A stretch of DNA of 64,000 nucleotides from contig NZ_CP047026.1 of assembly GCF_009796785.1 (NCBI RefSeq), positions 248,001-312,000 of the forward strand. Direction: 5' to 3'. Made by a program: the position numbers and the translations under genes. Shown piece after piece: positions 809 to 59,369 of the stretch; within the stretch, counting starts at the first letter, position 1, and every line of letters starts with the position of its first letter. Source of the stretch: Polaribacter sp. L3A8. GTDB lineage: Bacteria > Bacteroidota > Bacteroidia > Flavobacteriales > Flavobacteriaceae. Under the pieces are notes generated by a model that worked only from the letters and a program-made list of their open reading frames with translations, was not told the origin of the DNA and did no database searches.

Positions 809-817
809 TATCCTGTA
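809..817 (-). promoter_or_regulatory. CAGGA motif copy, leftward
   Basis: On the minus strand this reads TACAGGATA, preceded by CAG triplets 5 and 9 bp upstream. It is the same arrangement as the rightward copy at 1137. It lies 66 bp before the ATG at 745. Operator function is inferred from recurrence only. Confidence 0.45.
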
Positions 818-1136
818 CTGTCTGTACCTAGTTGTCTTTGGTTGTGTAGGTTACTTTAGAGTAATTGAAACAATAAAAAGCTTTTGTGTTTGTTTTTTTG
901 TTGATTTAAGAAAATGCTACACAAAAATTAGAAATTAAATAAGAATAAATGTTTTTTAAACCTATTTACAAGATATATTATTCCTTAAATTGAATATATT
1001 TAACAAATTGTTGTTTTTTTAAAGCTGAAATTTTATGTAAGAAGTTATAGAAAAAGACAATAAGATCGACCTTGTTTTAAAAGTAAAAACAAAATAAAAT
1101 GTTAATATTAATCGTATAAAAAAAATCTCAGTACAG

Positions 1137-1145
1137 TACAGGACG
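1137..1145 (+). promoter_or_regulatory. CAGGA motif copy upstream of GH78
   Basis: TACAGGACG core with CAGTA repeats starting 5 and 10 bp upstream (1129, 1134, 1139). The core ends 57 bp before the GH78 ATG at 1200. One of the recurrent intergenic copies. Confidence 0.55.
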
Positions 1146-1199
1146 ACGGTATAAAATTATAAGATTAATTTCATTTTTTATAAAATTAAAATATTAAAA

Positions 1200-4064
1200 A
1201 TGTATAAAATTAAATTTTTATTAGCACTCTTGTTAATTCCTTTTTTAAACACATCTTGCAACCAAGAAAAGGTAGATAAATTAGCATCAGTAACGTTTGA
1301 GTCGTTAACTTGTAATGCCAAAATAAACCCAACAGCTATTGAAAGTAAACAACCAATTTTTTCATGGATTGTAGCTGTAGAAGGTAACAATAAATCGCAA
1401 TCTGCTTATCAAATATTAGTAGCATCAAGTTTAGAAAAGTTAAATAACAATCAGGGAGATTTATGGAATTCTGGTAAAACGGAAGATGCTAAATCTACTT
1501 TTATAAAATATAAAGGAACAAAACTTAATGCAGTAACTGCGTATTACTGGAAAGTAAAAATTTGGGACGAGAAAAAACAAGAATCAGATTGGTCTAAACC
1601 TCAAAGTTTTCAAATGGGGTTGATAGATGAAGCAAATTGGGGAGACTCAAAATGGATAAGCCTAAATAAAGATACAAGAACATCAGAATATAGTTTTCGT
1701 GAATACAAAACAGGGCCAATGAAATCGCCTATTATGGTTAATGGGCAAGCAGCATCTTACTTTAGAAATGTTATTAATACAGAAAAAGAAATAGAAAATG
1801 CACAAGCTTATATTTGTGGATTGGGGTATTATGAGCTTTATTTAAATGGAGCTAAAGTAGGCGATCATGTTTTAGATCCTGCTCCTTCTAATTATGATAA
1901 GCAAGCTTATTATGTAAATTATGATATTTCAGAACAACTAAAATTAGGTAAAAATTCTTTTGGAATCATTTTAGGGAATGGTTTCTATGCGCAAGATATT
2001 TCTTGGAAAAGAGACCCAGAATCAGATAAAGATATGTCTTACGGCCCACCAACGGTTCGTTTTTTAATTAAAGTAACCTATAAAGATGGTAGTAAAAAAG
2101 ATTTTTATACAGATGAAAATTGGAAAGAATCTACGGGACCAATAGTATTTAATAATATTTATGGTGGTGATACTTATGATGCTCGTTATGAAATTAATGG
2201 TTGGAATACTTTAAATTATAATGATGAAAAATGGGGGAATGCAAAAGTTGTTTCGCCAAAATTAAAGAAGATTAGTGCACAACAAATTCCTGCAATTAAA
2301 AAATTAAAAGAATTTGAGCCTCAAAATGTATTTAAAGCTCCAAATGGAGATTGGATTGTAGATTTTGGTCAAAATATTGCTGGTTGGGTAAAGATTAATG
2401 TAAAAGAAAAAGAAGGCCAACTTATAGAAATTACAACTACAGAATCTTTGTTAAGAAACGGTAAAGATGTTTTTCAAGGTTCTACAGGTGGTGGAGCAAA
2501 TGGTATGGCTCAGATTTATAAATATATCTGTAAAGGAAATGACTTAGAGTCTTGGGAACCAAAGTTTAGTTATCACGGATTTCGTTATGCTAAAATAAAA
2601 GGCGTGTCTACAAAACCAGACAGCAAAATGATTAAAGCTGTTTTAGTGGCTACAGACATTCAAGAAAAAGGAAGTTTTAGCTCATCTGAACCTTTATTTA
2701 ATAAAATGCATAGTATTAGTAAATGGACTATTGTAGATAATGTACATGGTATTCCAGAAGATTGTCCGCATCGCGAAAAATGTGGTTGGTTAGGAGATGC
2801 ACACGCGTTTTGTGAATATGCATTATATAATTATGACATGTATGATTTCTATAAAAAATACATGGAAGATATTCGTACTCAAATGAGACCAACCAAAGGA
2901 CATAATAATCCTGAAATTAAATTTCAAGTACCAACCATGATTGCGCCAGGTAAAAGAACATCTTCTTATGCAAAACTAGATTGGGGTGTAGCAACAATGT
3001 ATTTACCTTGGTATAATTACTTGCATTATGGTGATGATGCTATTGTAAAAGACTACTATAAAGAAATGAAAGGTCTTACAAATTTTTATCTTTCATTTAA
3101 AGATGAAAATGGAATTATTCAAGACGGAATGGGAGATTGGTGTCCACCAAGGTGGGATAGAAGAAAGAACCCAGGTGCTATGGAGTGCGACCCAATTATT
3201 TCTGCCAATGCTTATTTCTATGATATTTTGGGTGTTATGGAAGGTTTTGCAAAAATAAATAAGGATGCTGCTTTTGAAGCAGAAATGAAAAAGGAAAAAG
3301 AGCAATTAAAAGCCGCTTTTAATAAAAACTTTTTAGTTGCTATGCCAAAAACAAACTTAAAATGGTATGGTAGTCAAACAGCAACTGTACAAGCATTACA
3401 GTTTGGTATGGTTCCAGAATTAGAAATAGAGCAAGTAGTAGATGGTTTGGTGTATGATATTACAGAAGTAAAAGGAGGGCATCATTCTACAGGTATTCAT
3501 GGTAATAGATATATTTACACTGTTTTAACTAAATATGGTAAAGCAGATTTGGCGTATCAAATTTTAACAACACCAGATTTTCCTAGTCAAACTTATATTA
3601 TGAATAATGGTTTTACCACTTGGCCAGAGCGCCAGTTTGAATGGGAAACTATGGAAGGACCATCTAATTCTTTAAACCATCCTATGCATAGTGGTTTTGC
3701 TGCTTATTTTTATGAGTCTTTAGGAGGAATTAAATCATCAAAAGATAATGTAGGTTATAAAGTATTTACAGTAAACCCAGAATTTCCAAAAAAAGTGACA
3801 TCAACTTCAGTTACTGTACCAACACCTTATGGAGATATTAAAAATGACTGGACTTTAAAAGAAAATGTTTTATCGATGGATCTTAAAGTGCCATTTAACA
3901 CCAAAGCAAAAGTTGTTTTAACCGATAATGAATTAAAGTCTGTTAAAATTAATGGCATCTCTGTTAAAGATTTTAAGAAAGAGAATGGTATTGAAATACA
4001 AGAAAAATCAGTAATGTTAGGATCAGGAAATTATAAAATTGAATATTCAAAAGATAAAGACTAA
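1200..4064 (+). CDS. GH78 family alpha-L-rhamnosidase, lipoprotein
   Basis: A 954-residue candidate alpha-L-rhamnosidase removing terminal rhamnose from oligosaccharides, probably in the periplasm or at the outer membrane. The signal peptide ends in a lipobox (LNTSC, Cys20). Residues about 30-145 form the fibronectin-like N-terminal domain of Bacteroidetes GH78 (FSW, YQILVASS, YYWKVKIWD). Then come beta-sandwich domains, the (alpha/alpha)6 catalytic barrel and a C-terminal beta-domain. The acidic active-site motif is DCPHREKCGWLGDA from residue 521, with Asp521, Glu526 (expected general acid) and Asp533 all present. Length is normal for the family. It is monocistronic: a CAGGA motif lies 57 bp upstream and a strong hairpin terminator follows. 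Family assignment is firm; substrate (ulvan-type rhamnose) is inferred from the neighbours. Confidence 0.9.
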   Translation: MYKIKFLLALLLIPFLNTSCNQEKVDKLASVTFESLTCNAKINPTAIESKQPIFSWIVAVEGNNKSQSAYQILVASSLEKLNNNQGDLWNSGKTEDAKSTFIKYKGTKLNAVTAYYWKVKIWDEKKQESDWSKPQSFQMGLIDEANWGDSKWISLNKDTRTSEYSFREYKTGPMKSPIMVNGQAASYFRNVINTEKEIENAQAYICGLGYYELYLNGAKVGDHVLDPAPSNYDKQAYYVNYDISEQLKLGKNSFGIILGNGFYAQDISWKRDPESDKDMSYGPPTVRFLIKVTYKDGSKKDFYTDENWKESTGPIVFNNIYGGDTYDARYEINGWNTLNYNDEKWGNAKVVSPKLKKISAQQIPAIKKLKEFEPQNVFKAPNGDWIVDFGQNIAGWVKINVKEKEGQLIEITTTESLLRNGKDVFQGSTGGGANGMAQIYKYICKGNDLESWEPKFSYHGFRYAKIKGVSTKPDSKMIKAVLVATDIQEKGSFSSSEPLFNKMHSISKWTIVDNVHGIPEDCPHREKCGWLGDAHAFCEYALYNYDMYDFYKKYMEDIRTQMRPTKGHNNPEIKFQVPTMIAPGKRTSSYAKLDWGVATMYLPWYNYLHYGDDAIVKDYYKEMKGLTNFYLSFKDENGIIQDGMGDWCPPRWDRRKNPGAMECDPIISANAYFYDILGVMEGFAKINKDAAFEAEMKKEKEQLKAAFNKNFLVAMPKTNLKWYGSQTATVQALQFGMVPELEIEQVVDGLVYDITEVKGGHHSTGIHGNRYIYTVLTKYGKADLAYQILTTPDFPSQTYIMNNGFTTWPERQFEWETMEGPSNSLNHPMHSGFAAYFYESLGGIKSSKDNVGYKVFTVNPEFPKKVTSTSVTVPTPYGDIKNDWTLKENVLSMDLKVPFNTKAKVVLTDNELKSVKINGISVKDFKKENGIEIQEKSVMLGSGNYKIEYSKDKD

Positions 4065-4154
4065 TAATAGTTTGTTAAATAAAACTTATTAGAGTGGTTA
4101 TACTTACTTTTAGTATCAATTAAATTGTAGCACTTTACAAAGTTTGTAAATTTT

Positions 4155-4187
4155 AAAAACTCAGAATTTAATAAATTCTGAGTTTTT
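4155..4187 (+). terminator. Hairpin terminator after GH78
   Basis: Perfect inverted repeat, arms 4155-4169 and 4173-4187 (core ACTCAGAATTT / AAATTCTGAGT), flanked by A-run and T-run. Works as a rho-independent terminator on the + strand. Confidence 0.8.
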
Positions 4188-4362
4188 AATTTTATGTTAG
4201 TATTGATTATTTTATTTGCAGTTTTTAAAGTTTAAGATCAACTAATAAATTACACAGATTAAAAAAATACGATAAACTTTCTGAATTAAATTTTGCATAA
4301 AATTTGGTTAATACTTAAAAAGTAAAAGAATTGTATTAATGTAAATGATACACCCCATATAG

Positions 4363-4371
4363 AGCAGGATA
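4363..4371 (+). promoter_or_regulatory. CAGGA motif copy upstream of T9SS binding protein
   Basis: AGCAGGATA core ending 56 bp before the ATG at 4425. Part of the recurrent set. Confidence 0.55.
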
Positions 4372-4424
4372 CTTAAAAGAGTCTTATTTTTTATCATTGT
4401 AATTAAACAATAACATTCTTAATA

Positions 4425-5381
4425 ATGAAAAAAAATACATTAATAATTTCTCTTTTATTACTAACAATAGTTTCTTCGCAACTATTCTCTCAAACATCAA
4501 CATGTAATGGTGAGCTACCTTTTGAAGAGAAAGATGGACTTTTAACCATAGAAATGGAATCTGGTATTATAAAAGATAGCCGATGGAAAATAGGAACAGA
4601 AACTATTAATAACGAAGAAATAAAATATTTACATTGGACAGGAGCAGAATCTTTTAGCGCACTTTCAGGTGCACCCATAGAATATAAAATTAAAATAAAT
4701 ACACCTGGAACTTACAGATTTGCTTGGAGAATGAGAGTAGGGAAAGGAACCAGTAAAGGTGAACACAATGATGCTTGGTTAAAAATAGATGCAGAAGATT
4801 TTTACGGAATTAAAGATGGTGCTAAAGTGTATCCAAAACCTTACTGTAATTCTAGTACAGATTTAACTTGTGCAGCTGGTACTTCTGTTAATAATTTTAT
4901 TAAAGCATTTGGTAATAGATTAGATTACGGTTTTGTAACCAATACAAACGACCACGTTGCACATAGAGTTTTTGTAACTTTTAACGAAGCCAAAGTGTAT
5001 ACGATTACTGTAGATGCTAGATCTTCTTATTTGTTTATTGATAAAATGGTTTTAAGAAGAAATGATATTTTAGATAGTGCAGCGTTTAATTTATCTAACA
5101 GCGAATCTTCTTGTTACGACGCATCCTTATCAACAGAAGATCAAAAAAAAAATAATCAAATAAAAATATATCCAAACCCAACAAAGGGTAAAGTAGATAT
5201 TAAAAATTTACCATTAAATTCTAGCTTGGTTATTTCTAATATTTATGGGGCAATCATTCGTACAATAAGCACAAAAGATATTAAGAATACAATTGATATA
5301 AGTGATTTAGAATCGGGGGTTTATTTTATTTCAAATAATGATAAAAAAAATAATTTTGTAAAAAAAATAATTAAAATATAG
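4425..5381 (+). CDS. Secreted carbohydrate-binding protein with T9SS sorting tail
   Basis: A 318-residue protein with a Sec signal (IISLLLLTIVSSQLFSQ). Residues about 30-220 form a beta-sandwich with CBM6/CBM35-like features: an EMESG start, a central YKIKINTPGTYRFAWRMRVG strand pair and a YLFIDKMVLRR end. Residues about 240-318 are a type A T9SS sorting tail (IKIYPNPTKGKVDI, then GVYFIS and KKIIKI). No catalytic domain is present, so it is likely a surface or released glycan-binding protein rather than an enzyme. It has its own CAGGA motif and terminator. T9SS export is well supported; the CBM family is a guess from strand pattern. Confidence 0.75.
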   Translation: MKKNTLIISLLLLTIVSSQLFSQTSTCNGELPFEEKDGLLTIEMESGIIKDSRWKIGTETINNEEIKYLHWTGAESFSALSGAPIEYKIKINTPGTYRFAWRMRVGKGTSKGEHNDAWLKIDAEDFYGIKDGAKVYPKPYCNSSTDLTCAAGTSVNNFIKAFGNRLDYGFVTNTNDHVAHRVFVTFNEAKVYTITVDARSSYLFIDKMVLRRNDILDSAAFNLSNSESSCYDASLSTEDQKKNNQIKIYPNPTKGKVDIKNLPLNSSLVISNIYGAIIRTISTKDIKNTIDISDLESGVYFISNNDKKNNFVKKIIKI

Positions 5382-5477
5382 TTTTTTAGACTTGAGAAGT
5401 TTTATTTAAATTGTAAATTTTATGAATAATTAGACTTTTTTTACATTAGATACTCTAAATAAAAAGCACAAAATTTT

Positions 5478-5515
5478 AATCCTGTAAGACAATATTAGTC
5501 TTACAGGATTTTTTT
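5478..5515 (+). terminator. Hairpin terminator
   Basis: Perfect 13-bp stem, arms 5478-5490 (AATCCTGTAAGAC) and 5498-5510, 7-nt loop, followed by five T. Terminates the T9SS binding-protein gene. The CAGGAT in its right arm is part of the stem and is not counted as a regulatory motif copy. Confidence 0.85.
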
Positions 5516-5622
5516 ATGACTGTGATTTTTGTTTGTTAAAAATGAGTTTATTAGTTTTAAAAAAGAACCCTATAATTGTATTAGAAATTAGAACTGATGT
5601 AAAAAAATAAACAATAATTGCT

Positions 5623-5661
5623 TACAGGTATGTACAGGATACCAAAGACTAGTGCAGGATA
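5623..5661 (+). promoter_or_regulatory. Tandem CAGGA motifs upstream of susC
   Basis: Three direct copies: CAGGTA at 5625, CAGGAT at 5635 and CAGGAT at 5655. Spacings of 10 and 20 bp place them on the same helical face. The last copy ends 60 bp before the susC ATG. Direct repeats of this kind suit a dimeric AraC/XylR-type activator, but that link is inferred. Confidence 0.6.
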
Positions 5662-5718
5662 GTTCGTAAAAATTATCATAATATATTTAGATATTATTAA
5701 CAATTAAACCAATATTTT

Positions 5719-8700
5719 ATGAATTTAAAAATTTTTTCAAGCAAATGCCTGAGATTTAAAAAAAGTTGGCTATTCTTTATGTTAGCTTTATGTTGTATAG
5801 GGATATCGAGTGCCCAAACAGTTAAAGGTACTGTATCTGCCGATGGAGAACCATTACCAGGAGCTTCTGTTTTGGTAAAAGGAACTTCTAATGGAACAGT
5901 TACAGATTTTGATGGTAATTATTCTGTTAATCTTAATTCTGGAACAACCTTAATATTTTCTTATTTAGGGTACGCATCTAAAGAAGTTGTTGTAGGTAAG
6001 CAAACCCAAATTAATATAATCTTAGAACAAGACAATCAACTTGATGAAATTGTTGTTATTGGGTATGGTACACAAAAAAAATCAGACTTAACAGGTTCTG
6101 TTTCTAGTGTAAGTGCAAAAGATATTGCAGCAGTACCTGTATCTAGAGTAGACCAAGCCTTACAAGGTAGAGCAGCAGGTGTGCAGGTAACACAAACAAG
6201 TGGTGCTCCTGGAGCAGGAACAGTAATTAGGGTAAGAGGAGGTAACTCTATAACTGGTAGTAATGAACCGCTTTGGGTTATTGATGGTATTGTAGTTGGT
6301 ACAAATTTTAATCTTAATAATATTAACAGTAATGATATTAAATCTATTGAAATTTTAAAAGACGCATCATCTATTGCAATTTATGGTTCTAGAGGAGCCA
6401 ATGGAGTTGTTTTAGTGTCTACAAAAAGTGGTACAAATGCAGGTTCTGGTAAACCACAAATAAGTGTAAACATGTATACAAGCATGCAATTGGTGCCAGA
6501 ATTGCCAAATATGCTTTCTCAAGCAGAGCAAATAGCGTTTACCAATGAAAGTGCTACGTTTAGATCTGCAGCAGAACCTTTTCCTAATGATCCGTCTACT
6601 TATGCAAACAATGACTGGTATGATATTATTTTAAATGACGCTCCAATACATAATGCAGATGTTTCAGTTTCTGGTTCATCTAAAGATGGAAACGTAAATT
6701 ATTATAATTCTTTAAATTACTTTAATCAAAAAGGGCTTGTTGTTAGTTCTGGTATCGAAAAATTTATTTTTCGTTCAAATTTAGATATAAAGTTAACAGA
6801 TAATTTAAAAACTGGTTTTAGGTTAAATTACTCTAGAATTAATCAAGACAATGGTTTAGCTAGTTTTGGTAATGCTTTTGCAACTTTATCTACGCAACCT
6901 ATTTATAATGAAGATGGTACGTTTAATGGTTTTGATGATGTAGTTGGTGCTCCGTTTTCTAACCCAGTTGCAAATGTAGCATTAAATACAAATGAAACAT
7001 TTACTAATAATTTATTAGCAACAGCTTTTTTAGAATATAGTCCTGCAGCAAATTGGGTTATTCGTTCTACATTTAGTCCAGAATTTAATAATACAAAACA
7101 AAATAGATTTACCTCTAGTCAAAGTCCAGATTTACTTGTTGTAGGAGATTTAGGTAGAGCAAGTGTTAGAACTCTTGCTAGTCAAGGTTGGAATAACGAA
7201 AACACAGTACAATATCAATCTGATTTTGGACAAAACCATAGTGTAACAGCATTGGCAGGAGCTTCGTTTCAAAAAGTATCAACAGAAATTACATTAGCAG
7301 AAGCATTTGGAATAACTAGTGATGCTACAGGTTTTAATAATTTGGCAAATTCAGATCCAAAGAGAGCTGTGGTAAGTAGTGATTATACTGGGTTTCAAAT
7401 AGCTTCCTTTTTTGGAAGATTAAATTATAGCTACAAAGATAAGTATCTATTAACTTTGGTTGGTAGAACAGATGGTAGTTCTGTTTTTGCAGCAGGAAAC
7501 AAGTACGAGTTTTATCCATCTATAGCAGGAGCTTGGAAAATTTCTGAAGAACCGTTTATGAAAGATCAAGATGTATTTAAAGATCTTAAATTAAGAGCAA
7601 GTTATGGTAAGTCTGGAAATCAGGCAATTGGACCATACAGAACCCTTGCTTTGCTAACAGAGGCAAACACAACACTTAATGGAGAAGAGGTAACAGGTTT
7701 AACATTAGGTAGACCTTCTAACCCAAAGTTACAATGGGAAACTACTAATTCTTTTGATTTAGCATTAGAAGCATCAATATTTAATGGTAGAATTTTTACA
7801 GAATTAAATTACTACTATAAAAAAACAAATGATTTATTGTTAGATGTAAGTATTCCTAGACAAACAGGTTTTACGAGTCAATTACAAAATGTAGGATCAT
7901 TAGAAAATAAAGGATGGGAATTTTTAATAAATACTAAAAACATTAGAACAGATAATTTTAGTTGGAATTCTACCTTATCATTATCTGCAAACAGAAATAA
8001 AATTTTAGATTTAGGAGGTGTAGATTTTATAGATGTAACAGTAGATGCTATTTTAGGATCAGGAAATACTAGATTAATTGTTGGAGAATCTGTGCCAGTG
8101 TTTACTGGGGTTAATTATTTAGGAACATGGAAAAGCCAAGAAGAAATAGATGCATCTGGGTATACAGACCCACAAGTTGTTGGAGGGCCAAAATTTGAAG
8201 ACTTAAATGGAGATGGTATTATTTCTACAGAAGATAATGTTGTTTTAGGAGATCCTACTCCAGATTTAATTTTTGGTTTTGAAAACTCATTTTCATACAA
8301 AAATTGGGATTTATCATTTTATTTTCAAGGTACTGTAGGTAATGAAGTTTATAATTTAAGAACCCGTAACCATTATTTTAATCGTGGAGAGACAACTAAA
8401 TTTGCAGAGTTAGCAGATCGTTGGACACCAGAAAACCCTACATCTAATATTCCTAGAGCAGGTGCAGATTCTGTAACCAATACGCCTAGTAATTCAGAAT
8501 ATGTAGAAGATGGATCTCATGTTCGTCTTAAAACAGCAAGGTTAGCTTATAATTTACCTGTAGATAAATTAGGTTTTGGAAGTGTAAAAAATGCAACTAT
8601 TTAATTTTCAGGAACTAACTTATTGCTTTTTTCTAATTTTAGGTTGATAGATCCAGAAACAAGTAATTTTGGTTCAAGTGGTTTAGGTAATATAGCGCAA

Positions 8701-8766: not shown

Positions 8767-8776
8767 TAAAAGAAAT

Positions 8777-10360
8777 ATGAAAACAAAAAATATAATTTTA
8801 TTCGTATTCGCGATATTCTCTTTTTTTAGTTGTGAGAATTTCTTAGAAGAAGATCCAAGAGCTCTTATTGCTCCAGAAACGTTTTTTGCTTCAGAAAATG
8901 ATGCAAGACAAGCTGTTAATGGTATGTATGCTATTTTAAAAAATAATTCTATTTACGGTCAAGTAGGGTTAGATCATTTTTATGATAACGGAGCAGATAT
9001 TATAGAACCTAATCGTTCTGCAAATTTTGTAGAACCAATGGGTAATTATTCAATGAATGAAGCCTTAGCAGATGTATCTATTCAGAAAATGAGTGTTTCA
9101 GACACATGGAAAGATTTGTATAGAGTAATTTTTAATGCAAATATTATTATTAATCGTGTTACTGATAATGAAGCTATATCTAAAGTAGCACAAACAGATA
9201 TTATTGCAGATGCAACATTAATTAGATCTTTGTGTTATTGGCATATAACAAACCTTTGGGGAGCAGCACCGTATTATACAGAAGAGCTTAAGTTAGATGA
9301 AATTAAAATATTAGGTAGAACAGATGAAGCTACAATAATAGACGGAATTTTAATTGACTTAAAGTTTGTGATGGATAATTTGCAAAGTTCTTATACCGGA
9401 GATCAAAGTGGGCGTGCATCAAAATGGGTAGCAGCAATTATTATGGCTAAGATTTATATGCAACAAAAAGAGTGGGATTTAGCATTAAATATGTGTTTAG
9501 AAATTATCAATAAATCTGGGCATGAAATTTTGCCATCTTATGCTGCAGTTTTTGATCCTTCTAATGAATATAATGCAGAAATTATTTGGTCTTTAGATTT
9601 TGCAAGAGATATTAGAGGTCAATTTGAAGAAGGTACAGTAAAAGCAGATGGTACGCTAGCAAGTGTTTTTGGTAATGGAAATTGGAGACCAAGTATGTTT
9701 AATCCTCGTTTAAGAGATGAGCCAGCCAATACTTCTGAAAGAACAGCATTAAGTAATGCATTAACAGCAAGAGGAGAAGCTTTTAATGGTACAGCTTTAC
9801 AAGTAGCATCAAAAGATTTTGCAGAAAAATTTCCTTTAAATGATTTAAGAAGACCATTAAATATAATGGATAGTTATTTAGGTTTCGATTTAAATTTTCC
9901 ATACATGGCAAAATGGATGAACTTAAAGATAGATTCATCTCCTCGTTTTAATCATTCTGATAATCGAATGGTGTTTAGATTGGCAGATGTTTATTTAATG
10001 GCTGCAGAGTCTGAAAATGAGTTAAATGGACCAGGTAATGCGTATCAATACATTAATAAAATTAGAGAACGCGCATTTGTTACTAAAGTAGAATCTGAAC
10101 TTAAAGGGCTTTCTCAGCAATCGTTTAGAGAAGCAATTTATGATGAACGTAAATGGGAATTAGCCGGAGAAGCAAATAGAAGATATGATTTAATTAGATG
10201 GGGAATCTTGTTAGATGTTGTTCAGAATCTTGAATACCGTTTTTGGAAACCAAATGAAAACATTAAACCTTATCATGTTAAATTACCAATTCCATTACAA
10301 GAGTTGCAATTAAACCCAACTTTATTAGAATTTGACCCAACAAATAATGGGTATAGGTAA
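8777..10360 (+). CDS. susD: SusD-like glycan-binding lipoprotein
   Basis: A 527-residue surface lipoprotein (lipobox FFSC, Cys19) that caps SusC and binds oligosaccharide. The N-terminal FLEEDPRALIAPETFF motif, TPR-like helices with a LIRSLCYWHITNLWGAAPYY segment (about 150-170) and the C-terminal ERKWELAGEANRRYDLIRWG motif are typical of the SusD/RagB family. It starts 10 bp after the original end of susC, so the two are co-transcribed; a terminator follows. The SusD looks intact even though its SusC is interrupted. Confidence 0.92.
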   Translation: MKTKNIILFVFAIFSFFSCENFLEEDPRALIAPETFFASENDARQAVNGMYAILKNNSIYGQVGLDHFYDNGADIIEPNRSANFVEPMGNYSMNEALADVSIQKMSVSDTWKDLYRVIFNANIIINRVTDNEAISKVAQTDIIADATLIRSLCYWHITNLWGAAPYYTEELKLDEIKILGRTDEATIIDGILIDLKFVMDNLQSSYTGDQSGRASKWVAAIIMAKIYMQQKEWDLALNMCLEIINKSGHEILPSYAAVFDPSNEYNAEIIWSLDFARDIRGQFEEGTVKADGTLASVFGNGNWRPSMFNPRLRDEPANTSERTALSNALTARGEAFNGTALQVASKDFAEKFPLNDLRRPLNIMDSYLGFDLNFPYMAKWMNLKIDSSPRFNHSDNRMVFRLADVYLMAAESENELNGPGNAYQYINKIRERAFVTKVESELKGLSQQSFREAIYDERKWELAGEANRRYDLIRWGILLDVVQNLEYRFWKPNENIKPYHVKLPIPLQELQLNPTLLEFDPTNNGYR

Positions 10361-10382
10361 CTATTAATTTAAATTAATTTTT

Positions 10383-10416
10383 AAAGGTCGAAATATTTTT
10401 TATTTCGACCTTTTTT
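10383..10416 (+). terminator. Hairpin terminator after susCD
   Basis: Perfect stem AAAGGTCGAAATA (10383-10395) with its complement at 10401-10413, 5-nt loop, followed by Ts. Confidence 0.85.
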
Positions 10417-10439: not shown

Positions 10440-10468
10440 TACAGTATGGAGCAGTACAGTGCAGGGTG
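10440..10468 (+). promoter_or_regulatory. CAGGA-like motif array upstream of GH3
   Basis: CAGTAT at 10442, CAGTAC at 10452, CAGTGC at 10456 and CAGGGT at 10462. The first and last are exactly 20 bp apart. The core deviates (CAGGG) and lies about 170 bp before the GH3 start, farther than usual. Confidence 0.4.
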
Positions 10469-10635
10469 CTATTTTAGTTTATGAAATTTATCTTGCATTA
10501 AATTTCGATGAAGTGACATTTTTTAGATTTTGATATCATTTTAATGATATCAATTTTTGCAGTTTATCTTAAAAAGTTGCTTCTTAAAAGAAGTCTAAAG
10601 TCAATAAAAACAATTAATTATAATAAATTAGATTA

Positions 10636-12810
10636 ATGAGAAAAATAGTTTTAGTAGGTTTTGCCCTAATCGCATTAATTGGCTGTAATTCAACAAAAAA
10701 CGAAAGCCAATCTTTAAGTAAAGAAGATTCAGAAATTGCTGCAAAAGTTAAAAGCTTAGTAAGCAAAATGACTTTAGAGGAAAAGATTGCAGAGATGACA
10801 CAAGATGCTCCTGCAAATGAGAGGTTAGGAATTCCATACATGAAATATGGAGAAGCACTGCATGGGTTGTGGCTTGTTTTGGATTATTATGGAAATACAA
10901 CAGTTTATCCTCAAGCTATTGCTGCAGCTTCTACTTGGCAACCTGAATTAGTCAAAAAAATGGCTTCACAAACAGCTATAGAAGCCAGAGCTTTAGGGGT
11001 TACACATACGTATTCGCCAAATTTAGATGTAATTTCTGGAGATCCAAGATATGGTAGAGTAGAAGAATCTTATGGAGAAGACCCTTATTTGGTGTCTAGA
11101 ATGGGAGTTGCATTTATACAAGGTTTACAAGGAATGGGTGATGAACGTTTTGATGAGAATCATGTAATGGCAACAGCGAAGCATTTTATTGGATATCCTG
11201 AAAATCGACGTGGAATTAACGGAGGTTTTAGTGATATGTCCGAGCGTCGTTTACGAGAAATCTATTTACCACCTTTTGAAGCTGCTATAAAGGAAGCAAA
11301 GATAGGTTCTCTTATGCCAGGTCATCAAGATTATAATGGGGTTCCAAACCATATGAATACTTGGTTACTTAAAGATATTTTACGAGATGAATTGGGTTTT
11401 GACGGTTTAATTGTTTCTGATAATAATGACATAGCAAGGTTAGGAACCATGCATTTTATAGCTGAAAACAGAACTAAATCAGCTCTCTTAGGATTAAAAG
11501 CAGGGGTAGATATGGATTTAGTGATTGGAAAGATTGAGGAATTAGCGGCATATAATACTAAAGTGTTGAAAGATACTATAACAAAGAATCCTAAATTGGA
11601 AAAGTATATTGACAAAGCTACTTCTCGTATTTTAACCGCAAAATATCAATTGGGTTTATTTGATGCAAAACCAAAAAAGATTGATAAAAAAACTGTATAC
11701 GCTGGTAAAAAAGAGCATCAAGAATTTGCTTATGAAATGGCTAAAAAGGCAATTATTTTGTTGAAAAATGATAATAATTTATTGCCATTAGATATGTCTA
11801 AAATTAAATCATTAGCGGTTATAGGACCAAATGCACATGAAAATAGACCAGAAAAAGGTACTTATTCTTTATTAGGTGGCTACTCTGGTTTACCTCCTTA
11901 TTATGTTTCTGTTTTAGATGGATTAAAAAGTAAAGTAGGAGAGAATGTAAAAATTAATTATGCAAAAGGGTGTGATTTATTAAATAACTCAAAAGCAGAT
12001 TTTTCTAACGCAGTTGCCGCAGCTAAAAATTCTGATGCCGTTGTGCTTGTTGTTGGTGGATCTCGTAGAACAGGTGGTGAAGGTGTAGATAGAGCAGATT
12101 TAAATTTATATGGAGTTCAAAATGAATTGGTAGAAGCGATTCATAAAACAGGAAAACCTGTTATTGTTGTTTTAATTAATGGGCGTCCATTATCTATTAA
12201 CTATATAGCAGAAAATATTCCTTCTGTTTTAGAAACTTGGTATTTAGGTATGCGTTCTGGAGATGCTATTGCAGATGCTCTTTTTGGAGACGCAAATCCT
12301 GGAGGAAAATTAACAGTTTCTTTTCCGCGTTCAGTAGGTCAAGTTCCTGTAACTTACTTAGAACGTCCAGATTTTATTGGATCAGGTAAAGGTCTATTTA
12401 GAGATGTAGATAAAACACCATTATTTCCTTTTGGTTATGGTTTAAGTTATACAAAATTTAAACTTGGTACTCCAAAATTAGAAAACTCTACAATTGCTAT
12501 AGATGGTACTACTTCTGTTTCTGTAGAAGTAACCAATATAGGTGAAAGAGAAGGAGATGAAGTGGTACAAATGTATGTTAGAGATGATTATGCTTCTGTG
12601 GGGCGTTATCTTAAAATGTTAAAAGGTTTTAAACGTATTACTTTAAAACCAGGAGAAACAAAAACAGTAAGCTTTAATTTAGGTTTTAATGAATTAAATG
12701 TATTAAATCAACAAATGAAAAAAGTTGTAGAGCCTGGTACTTTTACAATTTCTGTTGGAACTTCTTCTATGGAAAAAGATTTACAAACAGCTACTTTAAG
12801 AGCTAAATAG
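10636..12810 (+). CDS. GH3 beta-glycosidase, lipoprotein
   Basis: A 724-residue exo-acting GH3 enzyme; in a rhamnose/uronate/xylose PUL a beta-xylosidase or beta-glucosidase role is plausible. Lipobox LIGC gives Cys17. Domains: (beta/alpha)8 domain about 35-335, alpha/beta sandwich about 365-590 and a fibronectin-III-like domain about 625-715 (VEVTNIGEREGDEVVQMYV). The nucleophile is Asp262 in GFDGLIVSDNND. The acid/base candidate is Glu482 in RRTGGEGVDR. KHFIGYPENRRG in domain 1 is the usual substrate-binding stretch. It is first in a three-gene operon with a sulfatase (48 bp gap) and the GH2-like enzyme (61 bp gap). Specificity cannot be read from sequence. Confidence 0.9.
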   Translation: MRKIVLVGFALIALIGCNSTKNESQSLSKEDSEIAAKVKSLVSKMTLEEKIAEMTQDAPANERLGIPYMKYGEALHGLWLVLDYYGNTTVYPQAIAAASTWQPELVKKMASQTAIEARALGVTHTYSPNLDVISGDPRYGRVEESYGEDPYLVSRMGVAFIQGLQGMGDERFDENHVMATAKHFIGYPENRRGINGGFSDMSERRLREIYLPPFEAAIKEAKIGSLMPGHQDYNGVPNHMNTWLLKDILRDELGFDGLIVSDNNDIARLGTMHFIAENRTKSALLGLKAGVDMDLVIGKIEELAAYNTKVLKDTITKNPKLEKYIDKATSRILTAKYQLGLFDAKPKKIDKKTVYAGKKEHQEFAYEMAKKAIILLKNDNNLLPLDMSKIKSLAVIGPNAHENRPEKGTYSLLGGYSGLPPYYVSVLDGLKSKVGENVKINYAKGCDLLNNSKADFSNAVAAAKNSDAVVLVVGGSRRTGGEGVDRADLNLYGVQNELVEAIHKTGKPVIVVLINGRPLSINYIAENIPSVLETWYLGMRSGDAIADALFGDANPGGKLTVSFPRSVGQVPVTYLERPDFIGSGKGLFRDVDKTPLFPFGYGLSYTKFKLGTPKLENSTIAIDGTTSVSVEVTNIGEREGDEVVQMYVRDDYASVGRYLKMLKGFKRITLKPGETKTVSFNLGFNELNVLNQQMKKVVEPGTFTISVGTSSMEKDLQTATLRAK

Positions 12811-21487: not shown

Positions 21488-21547
21488 AAGCAGAATATTT
21501 AGTATATTAAAGTACTGAATTCTAATATATTAATAAATATCCTGCTT
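21488..21547. other. Inverted repeat at the left end of the IS
   Basis: AAGCAGAATATTTA at 21488 pairs imperfectly with AATATCCTGCTT ending at 21547, immediately before the transposase ATG. Such stem-loops in other IS elements limit translation from outside transcripts; that role here is inference. Confidence 0.4.
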
Positions 21548-25407: not shown

Positions 25408-25814
25408 CAAAATAATAAAGTAGAAGACTTCAGGGGCACAAAATTTTAATATTACTTATCAAATAGGTGACTTTGTGTTTAAATATAAGATTTATAACCA
25501 TAATTATCTGGTGACTCTTCCTTGTTAATTTTAATATTTTTTTGGAAAACTATCATGTAAAAAAGAATAAATACTTGTTAGTCTATGTGCTTTGCAAGAC
25601 CTAAGTATAGATTTATTTTTTTAAAACATTTCCGTATTTATTTATATCGGTATATAAAAAAATCATACAACAAATCATTTTAACTATTAACATCAAACAA
25701 AATAATATACACAGGTCAAACCAAGACAAGATTTAATTTGATAAACAATATTTTTAAGGAATTATTAACCTAAAATTTAAAAAAAAATAATAAACAAATT
25801 AAACTAAAAAGAAA
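25408..25814. other. Intergenic region before second susCD
   Basis: No gene. No good CAGGA motif (only an ACACAGGTC near 25709). A weak CACAAAA...TTTGTG pair near 25437-25473 could be a poor terminator. Presumably contains the susC promoter. Confidence 0.4.
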
Positions 25815-37806: not shown

Positions 37807-37888
37807 TTATTTTAAAAGTAAGCTAAAAAAAGGTTATATTGTTTTTAATCTATGCCCTCTTTTAAGAACTGCAAAATTTATTAAGTAA

Positions 37889-37897
37889 TACAGGACA
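37889..37897 (+). promoter_or_regulatory. CAGGA motif copy upstream of second BNR_4 lyase
   Basis: TACAGGACA core ending about 73 bp before the ATG at 37968, with CAGTAT and CAGTTT at +5 and +15. Confidence 0.5.
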
Positions 37898-37967
37898 GTA
37901 TATAACAGTTTGTTGATGTATTTTAATGAAATTTGTTGTAAATAAAATTTTTACTAATTAAAATAAA

Positions 37968-40478: not shown

Positions 40479-40549
40479 ATACAGCAAAGTTTTTTTTTAG
40501 AGGAGTGTATTTTATCAAATTTTAAAAAGCATTTAACCAATAACGATAA

Positions 40550-40558
40550 TGCAGGACA
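40550..40558 (+). promoter_or_regulatory. CAGGA motif copy upstream of lyase-like gene
   Basis: TGCAGGACA core ending 59 bp before the ATG at 40615. Confidence 0.55.
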
Positions 40559-40614
40559 ATGTTTTTTATAAAATAAATTAATTTTAAAGCTTAATTGTTA
40601 AATAAGGTATAAAC

Positions 40615-42525: not shown

Positions 42526-42547
42526 ATTAATTATCGATTTTACGAGA

Positions 42548-42612
42548 CAGAGCAGGATGGTTTTAAAAGAAAAAAAATCAATCTTGCTCTGATGAGTTTT
42601 AATTTTTTTTTG
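42548..42612 (+). terminator. Probable terminator whose stem contains a CAGGA motif
   Basis: Left arm 42548-42558 (core AGAGCAGGAT) pairs with 42581-42591 (core ATCTTGCTCT) with one G-U pair and a 22-nt loop, followed by T-rich DNA after a short gap. AGCAGGATG at 42551-42559 also matches the regulatory motif, 195 bp before the next gene, so stem and motif overlap and the site is ambiguous. Confidence 0.45.
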
Positions 42613-42751: not shown

Positions 42752-45529
42752 ATGAAGCAGCAATATTTTTATTACATAGTTAGTTTTCTAACCCTATCAA
42801 TTTTTATTTCATGTGAAAAACCTGAAATTTCAAAACCTATAGAACTTAGGGTTTCAGAGAATTTTAAAAACCCTATTGGGTTTTATAATAACAAACCTAC
42901 TTTTTCATGGGTATTACCTGTTTCAGAAAATGTAAAAAGTCAATCTGCATATCAAATTGTTGCAGCTAGTTCACCTAGTTTATTACCAGATAACCCAGAT
43001 ATTTGGGATTCAAAAAAACAAGTAAAAAATCAATCTACATGGATTAATTATAAAGGGAAACCTTTGCAATCTAGACAAAAAGTATACTGGCAAGTGCGCT
43101 ATTGGGATCAAGACAAAACCGCATCTACATGGAGTGCTATAAATACTTTTGAATTAGGTTTACTAAATAATAAAGATTGGAAAGCAAAATGGGCAGGTTT
43201 AGATACTGCAAAAGATAGTATTAAAGGCGTTAGAAAATTTTTAATGCATAGACCTCAATATTTAAGAAAAGGTTTTGAAGTATCTAAGGAAGTAGAATCT
43301 GCAAGGTTATATATTACAGCAAAAGGAATTTTTGATGTGCATTTAAACGGAAAAAATGTAAGTGATGATGTAATGCCTCCGGGTTGGACACCTTATAACC
43401 ACCGTATAGAAACACTTACTTACGATGTTACAACGTTATTAGAAACAGGTAAAAATGCCATAGCGGTAGCGTTGGCTTCAGGATGGCATTCCGGAAGAAT
43501 TAGTAGAGGTAAAGCACTTTACGAAAACTTTGCATCACCTAAAATATTATGTCAGTTAGAAATAACCTTAAAAGACGGATCTAAACAAATTATTATATCT
43601 GATGAAAGTTGGAAAGGAACCACAAATGGTCCTATTCGATTAGCAGGTATTTATGATGGAGAAACTTATGATGCTAATCTTGAAATACCGAATTGGTCTG
43701 CTGCAAATTTTAACGATGCTACTTGGCAAAATACAGAAATAGATGCGGTTGTAGATTCTGTTAAACTAGCTCCTAAACGCCATACAACAGTAAAACAAAA
43801 ATCATTAATTAGTAATGTAGAGGTTGTTTCTGTAAAAGAGAACATAGCAATATTTAACTTAAAGCAAAATATGGTAGGCGTACCAAAGGTAAAAGTGCCT
43901 ATGAAAAAAGGTGATACCTTAAAAATTCGTTTTTCAGAAATGTTGTTAAGTGATGGCTCGTTTTATACCACCAATTACCGTTCGGCACAATCTACCGATT
44001 ATTATATCGCTGCGGCGGATGGAATTATAAACTATACACCAAAATTTACGTTTCACGGATTTCAGTTTGTAGAATTAAGTGGATTTGATAAACAAGGAAA
44101 ACCAGATTCAACTTGGGTACAAGGATTGGTGCAGCATTCAGATTTTGAAGTAAATGGAACGTTTACATCATCACACGAAAAATTAAATCAATTACAAAGT
44201 AACATTACTTGGGGCTTACGCGATAATTTTTTCGATGTTCCTACAGATTGTCCGCAACGAGACGAACGCTTAGGGTGGACAGGCGATGCACAAGTAATCT
44301 CTCCAACAGCCATGTTTAATTTTAAGACACATGCTTTTTGGACAGCTTGGTTACAAAGTATGCGAGAAACTCAGTCTGAGCATAAAGACGGTTTAATCCC
44401 TTTTATCATACCAGACGTACTACAAAATAACAATGCAAGTTCTGGTTGGGGAGACGCAGGTGTAATTATCCCTTGGGATATTTATAATATTACAGGAGAT
44501 ATAAGTGTGCTTCAAGAAAATTACGAAATGTCTAAAAAGTGGGTTGGTTATTACCAATCTAAGGCTAAAAATTATATTTCTTATGTGCATTCTTTTGCAG
44601 ATTGGTTACAACCTTACCCAGAAAAAACAGGTAAAATAGGGAATAGAGGCGATACACCAAAAGAGTTTATAAACACAGCTTATTTTGCACACTCTGCTCA
44701 TTTACTATCTAAAATTGCAAGTGTTTTAGGTAAAACAGAAGACGAAAAAAAATACAAAAATTTATACAAAGAAATAGCCAATGCTTTTGAAAACAAGTTT
44801 TTTGATGAAAACGGAATGTTTATAAACACAAAACAAACGCAAACAAGTTATTTACTAGCGATACATTTTAATTTATTAAAACCAGAAACCAAAGTAAAAG
44901 CACAAAAGCATTTGCTAGAAGAACTTAAAAAAGCAGATTACCATTTAGGAACAGGTTTTTTAGGAACACCAATATTACCTAAGGTTTTAGATGATATGGG
45001 CGAGATAGATTTAATGTATAAAATTTTATTTAAAGAAACCTATCCATCTTGGTTTTATTCTATAAATCAAGGAGCAACCACTATGTGGGAACGTTGGAAT
45101 AGCTTTAGTAAAGCAGATGGTTTTAACCCACAAAGCATGAATAGTCTTAACCATTATGCGTACGGAGCAGTAGGACAATGGATGTACGAGCGTATTGCGG
45201 GTATTGCATCATTAGCACCAGGCTATAAAAAAATTAGAATTGCTCCAATACCTAATGAAAGATTATCTTCTGCATCAGCATCTTTAAACACCTCTTACGG
45301 AGAAGTTTCTTCTGCATGGAAAATTGAAAATAAAACGTTTCAATTAGATGTTGTTATTCCACCAAATACAACGGCAGAAGTTCATATTCCTTTAGGAAAT
45401 CTAGAAGAATTACTTGTAAACGGAAGCGCTATAAAAGAAAATATTAATATAAAATTATTAAATACAGATAAAGAATCTTTAGTAATTTTAGTGAATTCAG
45501 GAACTTATAAATTTCAAAATAAATTTTAA
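42752..45529 (+). CDS. GH78 family alpha-L-rhamnosidase, lipoprotein
   Basis: A 925-residue candidate exo-rhamnosidase. Lipobox FISC (Cys21). N-terminal fibronectin-like domain with ENFKNPIGFYNNKPTFSWVLP and YQIVAASSPSLLPD, beta-sandwich domains with the PPGWTPYNHRIETLTYDVT segment, catalytic (alpha/alpha)6 barrel and C-terminal beta-domain. The active-site motif DCPQRDERLGWTGDA starts at Asp499 and includes Glu505 and Asp512. TTMWERWNS supplies the later acidic residue. It is the first gene of a tightly spaced six-gene operon running to 57170, and a tandem paralogue follows 18 bp downstream. Intact and of normal length. Confidence 0.92.
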   Translation: MKQQYFYYIVSFLTLSIFISCEKPEISKPIELRVSENFKNPIGFYNNKPTFSWVLPVSENVKSQSAYQIVAASSPSLLPDNPDIWDSKKQVKNQSTWINYKGKPLQSRQKVYWQVRYWDQDKTASTWSAINTFELGLLNNKDWKAKWAGLDTAKDSIKGVRKFLMHRPQYLRKGFEVSKEVESARLYITAKGIFDVHLNGKNVSDDVMPPGWTPYNHRIETLTYDVTTLLETGKNAIAVALASGWHSGRISRGKALYENFASPKILCQLEITLKDGSKQIIISDESWKGTTNGPIRLAGIYDGETYDANLEIPNWSAANFNDATWQNTEIDAVVDSVKLAPKRHTTVKQKSLISNVEVVSVKENIAIFNLKQNMVGVPKVKVPMKKGDTLKIRFSEMLLSDGSFYTTNYRSAQSTDYYIAAADGIINYTPKFTFHGFQFVELSGFDKQGKPDSTWVQGLVQHSDFEVNGTFTSSHEKLNQLQSNITWGLRDNFFDVPTDCPQRDERLGWTGDAQVISPTAMFNFKTHAFWTAWLQSMRETQSEHKDGLIPFIIPDVLQNNNASSGWGDAGVIIPWDIYNITGDISVLQENYEMSKKWVGYYQSKAKNYISYVHSFADWLQPYPEKTGKIGNRGDTPKEFINTAYFAHSAHLLSKIASVLGKTEDEKKYKNLYKEIANAFENKFFDENGMFINTKQTQTSYLLAIHFNLLKPETKVKAQKHLLEELKKADYHLGTGFLGTPILPKVLDDMGEIDLMYKILFKETYPSWFYSINQGATTMWERWNSFSKADGFNPQSMNSLNHYAYGAVGQWMYERIAGIASLAPGYKKIRIAPIPNERLSSASASLNTSYGEVSSAWKIENKTFQLDVVIPPNTTAEVHIPLGNLEELLVNGSAIKENINIKLLNTDKESLVILVNSGTYKFQNKF

Positions 45530-50623: not shown

Positions 50624-50662
50624 CATTTATTGATATTAACAAATAATAGAAGAAATATTAAA

Positions 50663-53722: not shown

Positions 53723-53774
53723 GTTCTAATTAGAAAAGGCATCTAAATTAATGAATTATAATATTACTATTAAA

Positions 53775-57170: not shown

Positions 57171-57498
57171 TTTTTTTTATCACTTATTTAATTCTTCTTA
57201 TTGGGGTAAGATTGTCTTTTTTTATTTCAAAAAATGATAGTAAAAATGCATTATTTTTTTTAGATAATTATTCCTCTTTCTTAGGTATAACAGAACAGAA
57301 CAGTTTGCAGCAGGATGGTTAAGTTGTTAATTGTAAATAATTTAGTGAATCTAAAATAGTTACGCAACTTATTTTTTAATGAACTTTATAATAACCCCTA
57401 AAACTAAACATATGTAATAAAGAAAATTAAGAGACACACTAAACGTTTAATTACAACTAATTAAACATTAAATTATTTTAACCAAACTAAATTAAAAA
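57171..57498. other. Intergenic region with CAGGA motif
   Basis: No gene. Contains the CAG-rich motif array at 57291-57317 about 184 bp before the next start. No good hairpin terminator for the operon upstream. Confidence 0.4.
57291..57317 (+). promoter_or_regulatory. CAG array with CAGGA motif
   Basis: CAG triplets start at 57291, 57296, 57301, 57308 and 57311, the last being CAGGATG. 57291 and 57301 are exactly 20 and 10 bp upstream of it. About 184 bp before the ATG at 57499. Confidence 0.45.
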
Positions 57499-59289
57499 AT
57501 GAAAATTAATATTAAAAAAACAGCAATTACGGTAGGTCTTTTCTTAGCGTATTCTAGCGCAATTACTGCGCAGAGTTATCCTTTTCCACTTCCTGCTACA
57601 GTTAGTGCAACACTAAATATCAAAACAGGAACAAAGGTAAAATACAAAAATGCTCAATTAGGGTTAAACCTTACACGTTTATCAGATAGTAATGGTAAAG
57701 ATCTTTTTAGAAAATGGGGTACCTTAGGCGCTCGTTTTCCACACGGATTATTTTCTAACTGGTACGATTGGAGAACTGATGAAACAAAGCTTTTTGGAAG
57801 TGAAATGATAACGCTTCAAAATGCCAGAAATCAAACAGTACAAAGAGAAGTAGATAAATTATCTAGTATTAAAACATTTGAAACATCTCATTCAAAAGTT
57901 GGTATTGGAGTATTAGAGTCTTTATATAAAGAAAGAACTGCTAAATTTGATATTGTATGGACTTTTAATATGAGTGCAGATGGAAGAGATGTTAATAATA
58001 GCAATGAAACAAAGGCAAGATATGACGATTTAAAAAGGAGAGGATTACCTGTAGATTTTGTTGAAATGGGTAATGAGAATTTTTATCCAGGTCAAAGAAG
58101 TACTATTATTCCAAATACTTGGAATTATATTGCACGCGCTAAAGCAATGTCTAAAGCATTAAAAGCCAAAAATAGAAATATACAAGTTTCTGTACCTATG
58201 CTAAGACGAGGTAATGCATTTAACCCAAACTGGAATGCTGCTTTGGCAAGAGATCAATCTTTTTTTGATGCTGTAACGGTGCATTCATATCAAGGAGAAG
58301 ATCCAGATGGTAACGCTTCTAGTGATGGTATTGAATATGGACTTATAGCTAGAAAAACGTTAAAAGAATCTATAGACAACTATGCAAGAAAAGTAACAAG
58401 CAAACCAATTTGGTTAACAGAATGGGGTGTAAAATCTGCCGGTGGTTCAAATGCAGTTTCTGCTTTAGGAGCAGCAGATTGTTACCTTTATATGAGTGAA
58501 AATATGGATACATACCATAGAGCAACATGGTTTACGCCAACAGGTAGCTTAAATTCTTTTTATCCTACAATAACAAATAGTAAAGGTAGACCTGTTCCAG
58601 ATCCTACAAGAAAAACGGTTTTTGCCGCTATGTATGAGGCTGTTAAAAGTGTTTTTGCTTATAGTGAAGTTTATACAACTTCTATTTTAACGTCTCCTAA
58701 TATTACTTCTGGTGTAAAAGGAGTTAGCGCAAGAGCTACATTAAAAGGAGGTAGAATTAAAATTATTGCTGTAAATTTAACAAGTAAACCAGCTGCTTTT
58801 GTTATAAAAATTAATGGTGTTAAGTATACTAAAAACTTTAATCATAAAGCAATTAAATTTAATAATTTGACAGATACACCTCTTTATAATATAGGAGATA
58901 ATGCTTTAAAAGACGTAAGAAACGGAAGAGGTCACGTTACTTCTTTACCTAAATTTTCAATAAACGTTATTACACTTAGCTCAACTAGTGCTAAGGGAGT
59001 TGTTTTAAATGATAAAAATATTTCTGTAGAAACTGAAGAAACAGACGAAAGTTTACTTAGATCTGTAAACGTGTTTCCAAACCCAACTACAAAAGATTTT
59101 AATATATCTTTATTTGGTATGGAAAAAGCAGATATTACAATTACAGATATGTTAGGTAAAGTTATTTATAAAAAATCAACTATAGAACCTAATGTTAATA
59201 TTGGACAAGCATTTAAGTCTGGTCTTTATTTAATAAAGGTTGTAGATGATAACAAGAAAGAGTACATTAAAAAATTAATTATTAATTAA
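57499..59289 (+). CDS. Secreted clan GH-A glycoside hydrolase with T9SS tail
   Basis: A 596-residue extracellular enzyme. Signal peptide TVGLFLAYSSAITAQ. Residues about 45-395 look like a TIM barrel of clan GH-A: VEMGNENFY has the Asn-Glu pair with Glu193 (acid/base) and IWLTEWGV has Glu308 (nucleophile). DAVTVHSYQGE is the usual strand-6 motif. The GNEN form recalls GH51/GH79, not GH39. After a beta-domain (IKIIAVNLTSKPAAFVIKI, about 405-500), a T9SS tail begins at VNVFPNPTTKDFNI. It could be an exported endo-glycosidase acting with the lyases; substrate unknown. Family not assigned. Strong terminator follows; monocistronic. Confidence 0.72.
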   Translation: MKINIKKTAITVGLFLAYSSAITAQSYPFPLPATVSATLNIKTGTKVKYKNAQLGLNLTRLSDSNGKDLFRKWGTLGARFPHGLFSNWYDWRTDETKLFGSEMITLQNARNQTVQREVDKLSSIKTFETSHSKVGIGVLESLYKERTAKFDIVWTFNMSADGRDVNNSNETKARYDDLKRRGLPVDFVEMGNENFYPGQRSTIIPNTWNYIARAKAMSKALKAKNRNIQVSVPMLRRGNAFNPNWNAALARDQSFFDAVTVHSYQGEDPDGNASSDGIEYGLIARKTLKESIDNYARKVTSKPIWLTEWGVKSAGGSNAVSALGAADCYLYMSENMDTYHRATWFTPTGSLNSFYPTITNSKGRPVPDPTRKTVFAAMYEAVKSVFAYSEVYTTSILTSPNITSGVKGVSARATLKGGRIKIIAVNLTSKPAAFVIKINGVKYTKNFNHKAIKFNNLTDTPLYNIGDNALKDVRNGRGHVTSLPKFSINVITLSSTSAKGVVLNDKNISVETEETDESLLRSVNVFPNPTTKDFNISLFGMEKADITITDMLGKVIYKKSTIEPNVNIGQAFKSGLYLIKVVDDNKKEYIKKLIIN

Positions 59290-59308
59290 TTTTAATCAGA
59301 ATAATTTT

Positions 59309-59345
59309 AAAAGCCCAAATATTAATTTATTTGGGCTTTTTTTTT
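59309..59345 (+). terminator. Hairpin terminator
   Basis: Stem AAAAGCCCAAATA (59309-59321) with its complement at 59328-59340, then a T run. Confidence 0.88.
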
Positions 59346-59360
59346 GGAATACCATAACAT

Positions 59361-59369
59361 TACAGGATA
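59361..59369 (+). promoter_or_regulatory. CAGGA motif copy upstream of GH106
   Basis: TACAGGATA core, 134 bp before ATG 59501 (77 bp before an in-frame ATG at 59444). Confidence 0.5.

Follow-up and report, generated by a model that had tools for sequence, protein, structure and literature searches.

A 64,000-bp stretch of Polaribacter sp. L3A8 (NZ_CP047026.1, positions 248,001 to 312,000), referred to below as the window, holds a polysaccharide utilization locus (PUL) in which the short core CAGGAY recurs upstream of genes. We conclude, with a probability of roughly 0.7, that GntR regulators of one clade, equipped with a LacI-type sensor domain, bind a longer site in which this core forms the half nearer the promoter. 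The original prediction took the core for the cis-element of a PUL regulon; in an improved form the finding holds, and it has become larger, namely a genome-wide regulon together with its likely reader.

The improved form is a long element consisting of a 10-bp direct repeat, CAGK-N6-CAGGAY, followed after exactly 21 bp by the Bacteroidota -7 box TAnnTTTR. All eleven cores of the original prediction were found at their positions and on their strands (the one at 10462 reads CAGTACAGTGCAGGGT), and six of them, at 1139, 5655, 40552, 57311, 59363 and 815 (minus strand), have TAnnTT exactly 21 bp past the core, which had been overlooked. In the Polaribacter genome (G000) the pattern CAGGAY-N21-TANNTT occurs 52 times compared to 13 times for the reversed control, and spacings 20 to 22 pooled give 90 and 41 matches, respectively. 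The excess sits at spacing 21, because several N20 matches are copies of one repeated 32-mer, CAGGATTGTTCAAATCCTGAGTTTTTTATTTT, which is present at no fewer than six places in contig C1 of G000 and inflates the N20 count. Base counts were taken from 30 own-genome sites in 20 stretches (intergenic by a crude open reading frame (ORF) call, with the site at 205497 added and the one at 3113202 removed), and they show that the core is followed by RG and preceded, at exactly 10 bp, by another half-site, CAG(G/T). The combined pattern CAGK-N6-CAGGAY-N21-TANNTT is found 16 times in the genome and 0 times in the reversed control. Over the 30 sites the direct-repeat score was 3.54 at 10 bp, the only period that scored, and extra CAG repeats in phase were present at -20 in three sites and at -30 in three. 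No palindrome score above 0.08 was obtained from these sites, and a palindromic site was rejected on that ground. A weight matrix with the 21-bp spacing fixed, trained on the same sites and used to scan 439 kb of own-genome DNA, found 38 sites with at least 18 bits (the 30 training sites and 8 others) and 0 in reversed DNA; the leave-one-out scores were between 14.8 and 35.1. At the 43 sites upstream of rhaD kept for TA..TT (42 genomes with the GntR protein and G078, see below) the next base of the -7 box is T in 29 and the last base is G in 41, and the regulon promoters carry the TAnnTTTG box of the Bacteroidota main sigma factor. Their -33 slot reads mostly TAG or TAC.

The distribution of the element among relatives points to the regulator. 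In a survey of 397 Flavobacteriaceae genomes, strict elements were counted and relatives of the GntR protein encoded at 321312-322358 were sought. The strict element was found at 249 sites in 73 genomes, compared to 2 matches in the reversed control. Element and GntR occur together in 69 genomes, the element only in 4, GntR only in 10 and neither in 314; 245 of the 249 sites are in GntR-positive genomes, while both control matches are outside them. The rhaD gene of the L-rhamnose operon is present (1e-100 or better) in 95 of the 397 genomes, and among these the element is found in 68 of 78 genomes with GntR compared to 3 of 17 without, which does not support the view that the element simply accompanies rhamnose catabolism. 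In the 23 genera where some genomes have GntR and others lack it, the element tracks GntR in 21, is absent from both groups in 2, and shows the reverse pattern in 0. Seven of the 10 GntR genomes devoid of a strict element were examined (G138, G247 and G313 not among them), and all seven have CAGGAY at rhaD. When the scan was extended to the whole class, 10 of 277 genomes matched, with 2 matches in the reversed control. Three of these (G000, G185 and G374) belong to the same family and the other seven have one match each, so outside the family the element is near background.

The own genome encodes three likely readers, all outside the window: a tandem pair at G000:C1:320174-321223 and 321312-322358 and a third at 2447346-2448392. 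Their scores for the GntR winged helix (PF00392, cut-off 27) are 38.3, 41.2 and 45.5 bits, and that of a further GntR protein at 189362 is 27.6 bits. Residues 87-348 were modelled as a LacI-type fold, and fold comparison, in rows covering these residues or little more, showed resemblance to the LacI family and to AraR (3tb6). The DNA-binding domain is related to that of AraR (4egy, E 1.6e-6), and no aminotransferase family appeared in the Pfam scans of the regulators. That the reader is a GntR protein of this clade is well supported by the comparison of sequences and very probably correct.

A further argument comes from the DNA upstream of rhaD, of which 2.5 kb was fetched from 60 genomes, 45 with GntR and 15 without strong GntR. 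Among the former, CAGGAY is present in 43 and a TAnnTT box follows at 21 bp in 42, with CATATTTG in its place in G274; a GntR of this kind is encoded within the fetched 2.5 kb in 35. Among the 15 other genomes, 7 have a diverged GntR near rhaD and 8 have neither a nearby GntR nor any of these forms of the site. In five of the seven the rhaD site reads CAGAAC (G166, G441, G414 and G279) or CATAAC (G364) with the 21 bp to TAnnTTTR kept, and the recognition helix of the diverged GntR is SRDTVVKAY, SRDTVVRAY or SRDTIVRAY, i.e. Glu58 has become Val, along with a Pro in the wing. The other rhaD-side GntR proteins have the helix SRDTVEKAY or SRDTIEKAY (SRHTVEKAY in G274) and mostly Arg or Lys in the wing, and the two remaining diverged proteins, from G078 and G122, keep Glu58 and have CAGGAT and CAGGAA, respectively, at 21 bp. 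In terms of protein-DNA chemistry, Glu would be a suitable partner for the C paired with G, and Val for the methyl group of the T paired with A. The CAGAAC form is found once per genome, before rhaD only, and the diverged regulators therefore seem to have a local regulon.

Several points weigh against this interpretation. G185 and G374 have a GntR near rhaD but no site there, and their rhaD is about 65% identical. The rhaD-adjacent GntR of G168 has Gln58 (SRDTVQKAY) and a Pro wing, yet the rhaD site is CAGGAT; this genome carries another GntR of the same clade. One GntR protein of G102 has a Ser in the wing, and the five genomes with CAGAAC or CATAAC may descend from one change. The element is present in the absence of a strong GntR in four genomes (G078, G303, G306 and G382), in G303 as a single element before an oxidoreductase gene (L029). 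The GntR cut was placed in a gap (79 genomes at 5e-115 or better, next best 3e-76) after the gap had been seen, and the genome counts are corrected for phylogeny only in the genus contrasts, with genera read off the table. In ordinary promoters of the fetched DNA, TTTG at -33 is not enriched before TAnnTTTG. Finally, GntR proteins are mostly palindrome-binding repressors.

Measured from a typical start, the site would cover approximately -49 to -34 and so abut or overlap the -33 element. The GntR protein would bind the half-sites, arranged in tandem, from the same side of the double helix and either contact RNA polymerase or replace a poor -33 element; activation of this class II type is more likely than not. 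The ligand is probably rhamnose or a derivative, and L-rhamnose or its derivative in the sensor would turn transcription on. A single signal could in this way activate many loci scattered over the genome, for attacking the polysaccharide, for uptake and for rhamnose breakdown, and feed back on the gene of the regulator. The same protein at the same site could instead be a repressor, where the apo-protein occupies the -33 region and is released by rhamnose. Repression does prevail among GntR sugar regulators that carry a LacI-type sensor, the site is placed where occlusion would work, and the regulator and target genes are divergent. However, the rigid 21-bp distance, the directional and non-palindromic site and the extra repeats in phase are better suited to contact with RNA polymerase, and we consider repression rather unlikely.

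It is improbable that the element is read by a different activator, for example a hybrid two-component system (HTCS) or the AraC-type protein with a LacI-like sensor encoded in the window (20217-21362), with GntR merely accompanying the rhamnose genes. AraC-type proteins often act on direct repeats beside the -35 region, as E. coli RhaS and XylR do, but a relative of the window AraC regulator at E 1e-60 or better is present in 2 of the 397 genomes compared to 73 with the element, and it was rejected as the reader. Moreover, when only rhaD-positive genomes are considered the element still follows GntR, and a changed GntR helix goes with a changed core. The repeats of the HTCS motifs in Bacteroides thetaiotaomicron (B. 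theta) are on average 21 bp apart, according to the accessible part of PMC3878776, which argues against an HTCS as reader here. Were the element part of a promoter read by an alternative sigma factor, the fixed distance to the -7 box would be explained, but not the second half-site 10 bp upstream, the dependence on the presence of GntR or the ordinary TAnnTTTR box; this reading is very improbable. Chance clustering of a short word, to which the counts in the next paragraph lend some colour, is refuted for the long form by the genome-wide and family-wide counts against reversed controls given above.

CAGGAY occurs 38 times in the window compared to 29.5 ± 4.8 expected, a count matched by 7 of 100 shuffles, so the bare hexamer is unspecific, at chance level, and it was rejected as the motif. 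The original prediction had named equal frequency elsewhere or inside genes as the outcome that would speak against its motif, a test that the bare hexamer does not pass. The longer WRCAGGAY occurs 31 times compared to 11.0 ± 3.4 expected (0 of 100 shuffles reach 31), with 14 matches in the 6,945 bp between ORFs versus 17 in the 57,055 bp within ORFs (Fisher 1.4e-6). The statement that all cores are intergenic is thus true of the original selection only, because 17 of the 31 WRCAGGAY matches fall inside ORFs. Four intergenic matches were absent from that selection: 5479(-), 5502(+), 21539(-) and 23599(-). The first two are the arms, reading CAGGAT, of a strong terminator-like hairpin at 5478-5510 (-18.5 kcal/mol, z -5.6) and are a false positive of the short motif. 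The last two sit in remnants of broken genes. A transposase-like gene lies in pieces at about 21546-22451, with the same N-terminus in proteins at G000 2101986, 2417770 and 3433641, and a single enzyme-like frame at 22576-25407 is split into ORFs at 22576-23571 and 23992-25407; the intervening DNA looks coding, and the gene is probably broken. Among relatives the short pattern is uninformative, since it was matched in 59 of 59 genomes.

The elements and candidates in the window are, with matrix scores:

781..825, minus strand: element ACAGACAGTACAGGAT-N21-TAATTTAG, only a short open frame behind it, 22.0 bits.
1129..1173, plus strand: element CAGTACAGTACAGGAC-N21-TAATTTCA before GH78 (1200-4064), 30.5 bits.
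4355..4399, plus strand: element CCATATAGAGCAGGAT-N21-TATCATTG before a protein secreted by the type IX secretion system (T9SS) (4425-5381), 21.9 bits.
5625..5689, plus strand: double element, CAGGAT at 5635 and 5655 (20 bp apart), N21-TATATTTA after the second, 24.6 bits (5655).
10452..10496, plus strand: one-mismatch element CAGTACAGTGCAGGGT-N21-TATCTTGC before GH3 (10636-12810), 20.0 bits.
25712..25756, plus strand: degenerate candidate CAGGTCAAACCAAGAC-N21-TATTTTTA before the second susC (25815-28874), 18.4 bits.
37881..37926, plus strand: core TACAGGAC, N22-TATTTTAA, before an endo-ulvan-lyase-like BNR_4/beta-trefoil protein (37968-40418).
40542..40586, plus strand: element AACGATAATGCAGGAC-N21-TAATTTTA before 40615-42525 (no Pfam match), 25.4 bits.
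42543..42587, plus strand: weak element CGAGACAGAGCAGGAT, devoid of a good -7 box, before GH78 (42752-45529), 16.6 bits.
57301..57345, plus strand: element CAGTTTGCAGCAGGAT-N21-TAATTTAG before 57499-59289 (Glyco_hydro_cc, T9SS tail), 27.1 bits.
59353..59397, plus strand: element CATAACATTACAGGAT-N21-TAAGTTTA before GH106 (59444/59492-63016), 23.8 bits.

The double element precedes susC (5719-8604) and susD (8777-10360), and its core at 5635 is an upstream repeat of that at 5655. At 4365 and 10462 the 21-bp slots read TATCATTG and TATCTTGC, but a higher score is obtained at different offsets; the best box of 37891 lies 22 bp away, and the site has less than 11 bits under the fixed spacing. Behind the element at 781-825 the next minus-strand gene is about 600 bp further on, and the element looks like a promoter orphaned by gene loss. 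A distance of 56-73 bp from core to start had been proposed, which holds roughly for the clear cases: from the end of the core to the start codon there are 55 (1139), 54 (4365), 58 (5655), 71 (37891) and 57 (40552) bases, and at 59363 there are 75 to a TTG and 123 to the first ATG. It does not hold for 10462, 42553 and 57311, where the gaps are 168, 193 and 182 bases. The idea that the locus is split into two regulatory classes is partly supported. Upstream of the SDR gene, the sulfatase-GH78 pair and the first BNR_4 lyase there is neither a bare core nor anything of at least 11 bits with the fixed-spacing matrix; the second susC, which had been placed in the same class, has the degenerate candidate at 25722.

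The element is indeed the cis-element of a regulon, recurring before rhamnose and ulvan genes in other genera, but a regulon of one PUL it is not, as it is spread genome-wide and in other genera also precedes pectin-type genes. Outside the window, two PL28 ulvan lyase genes at 851-854 kb (L009 8087-11122), about 540 kb away from the PUL, each have elements, and further element-bearing genes are an endo-ulvan-lyase-like gene at 212 kb, GH2, GH78, GH39, sulfatases and a susC near 2443 kb. A gene at 4073 kb (L018 8374-9267), by eye a relative of the PL28 genes, also has the element and no Pfam match. The L-rhamnose operon (rhaD) and its divergent GntR gene are preceded by the element, and so is a GntR gene heading xylulokinase, xylose isomerase and a xylose transporter. 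This last regulator (L003 1362-2363, G000 189362) has the helix SRDTVFKAY and a Pro wing, yet CAGGAT is found in the element upstream, which could mean either that the rhamnose regulators control this gene too or that the site is the regulator's own. Ulvan is composed of rhamnose sulfate, xylose and uronic acids, and the own-genome gene set therefore fits an ulvan programme. In other genomes a downstream ORF of at least 100 amino acids was found at 29 of 30 loci fetched around elements, 6 of which are rhaD by position. Twenty other-genome targets scanned with Pfam comprise one each of rhaM, GH78, GH106, PL28, PL11 and an oligogalacturonate-lyase type, as well as sulfatases, SusC-like receptors, GH31, SDR and other enzymes and an NrtR/AraR-type regulator. 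What the targets share looks like rhamnose rather than ulvan, with some targets that have no obvious rhamnose link.

Among the closest known systems is the AraR type of GntR regulator (B. subtilis AraR), which shares the GntR winged helix, found as PF00392 in all three G000 regulators with this helix, and the LacI-type sensor. AraR represses from a palindromic operator, in contrast to the 10-bp direct repeat found here. By eye, galactose-operon GntR paralogs (about 40% identity; L148, L150, L154, L156, L162, L164 and L167), beside galactokinase-like and transporter genes, offer a contrast within one clade, with ACTAG-N6-CTAGT in the divergent gap in 7 aligned regions; a direct repeat can also be read in this sequence, because ACTAGT is its own reverse complement. 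The papers cited in the following are represented by their accessible parts. GntR regulators of the MocR subfamily (GabR, TauR and PdxR) are activators, often on direct repeats and divergent from their targets (PMC5320631); their second domain is aminotransferase-like and their repeats are separated by two or three helical turns, in contrast to the LacI-type sensor and one turn here. B. theta likewise regulates rhamnose, fucose and polysaccharide genes, but its rhamnose regulator RhaR is AraC-type, whereas FucR is GntR-type, each with a single-operon regulon, and its HTCS and SusR-like motifs are direct repeats, the latter 67 or 77 bp apart (PMC3878776). The carrageenan regulon of Zobellia galactanivorans also has members far from its PUL; there, however, an AraC-family factor was named and a common promoter element was not seen (PMC5698469). 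In a Vibrio xylan locus a xylose-sensing activator was described, and monosaccharide sensing of polysaccharide loci was called uncommon (PMC12125979), while the E. coli RhaS system was used to follow ulvan breakdown in a report whose accessible text does not contain "GntR" (PMC12858550). No description of a Bacteroidota ulvan-breakdown regulator or of this GntR-site pair was found in searches of an open-access library, which did not extend to subscription papers and regulon databases.

The wider proposition, which may prove right or wrong with about equal chance, is that members of a GntR clade with a LacI-type sensor gave up repression through palindromes and became class II activators that use one-turn (10-bp) direct repeats at a rigid distance from the Bacteroidota -7 box, forming a rhamnose-glycan regulon in dozens of Flavobacteriaceae genera, that a monosaccharide and not an oligosaccharide triggers polysaccharide breakdown, and that a Glu-to-Val change in the recognition helix retunes the site. 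If true, the finding would name the likely regulator, its site and the genes of the regulon, some of them for enzymes remote from every PUL, and unannotated ulvan and rhamnogalacturonan genes could be found by their promoters. It would also constitute a natural experiment on how a GntR regulator changes its site and its mode of action.

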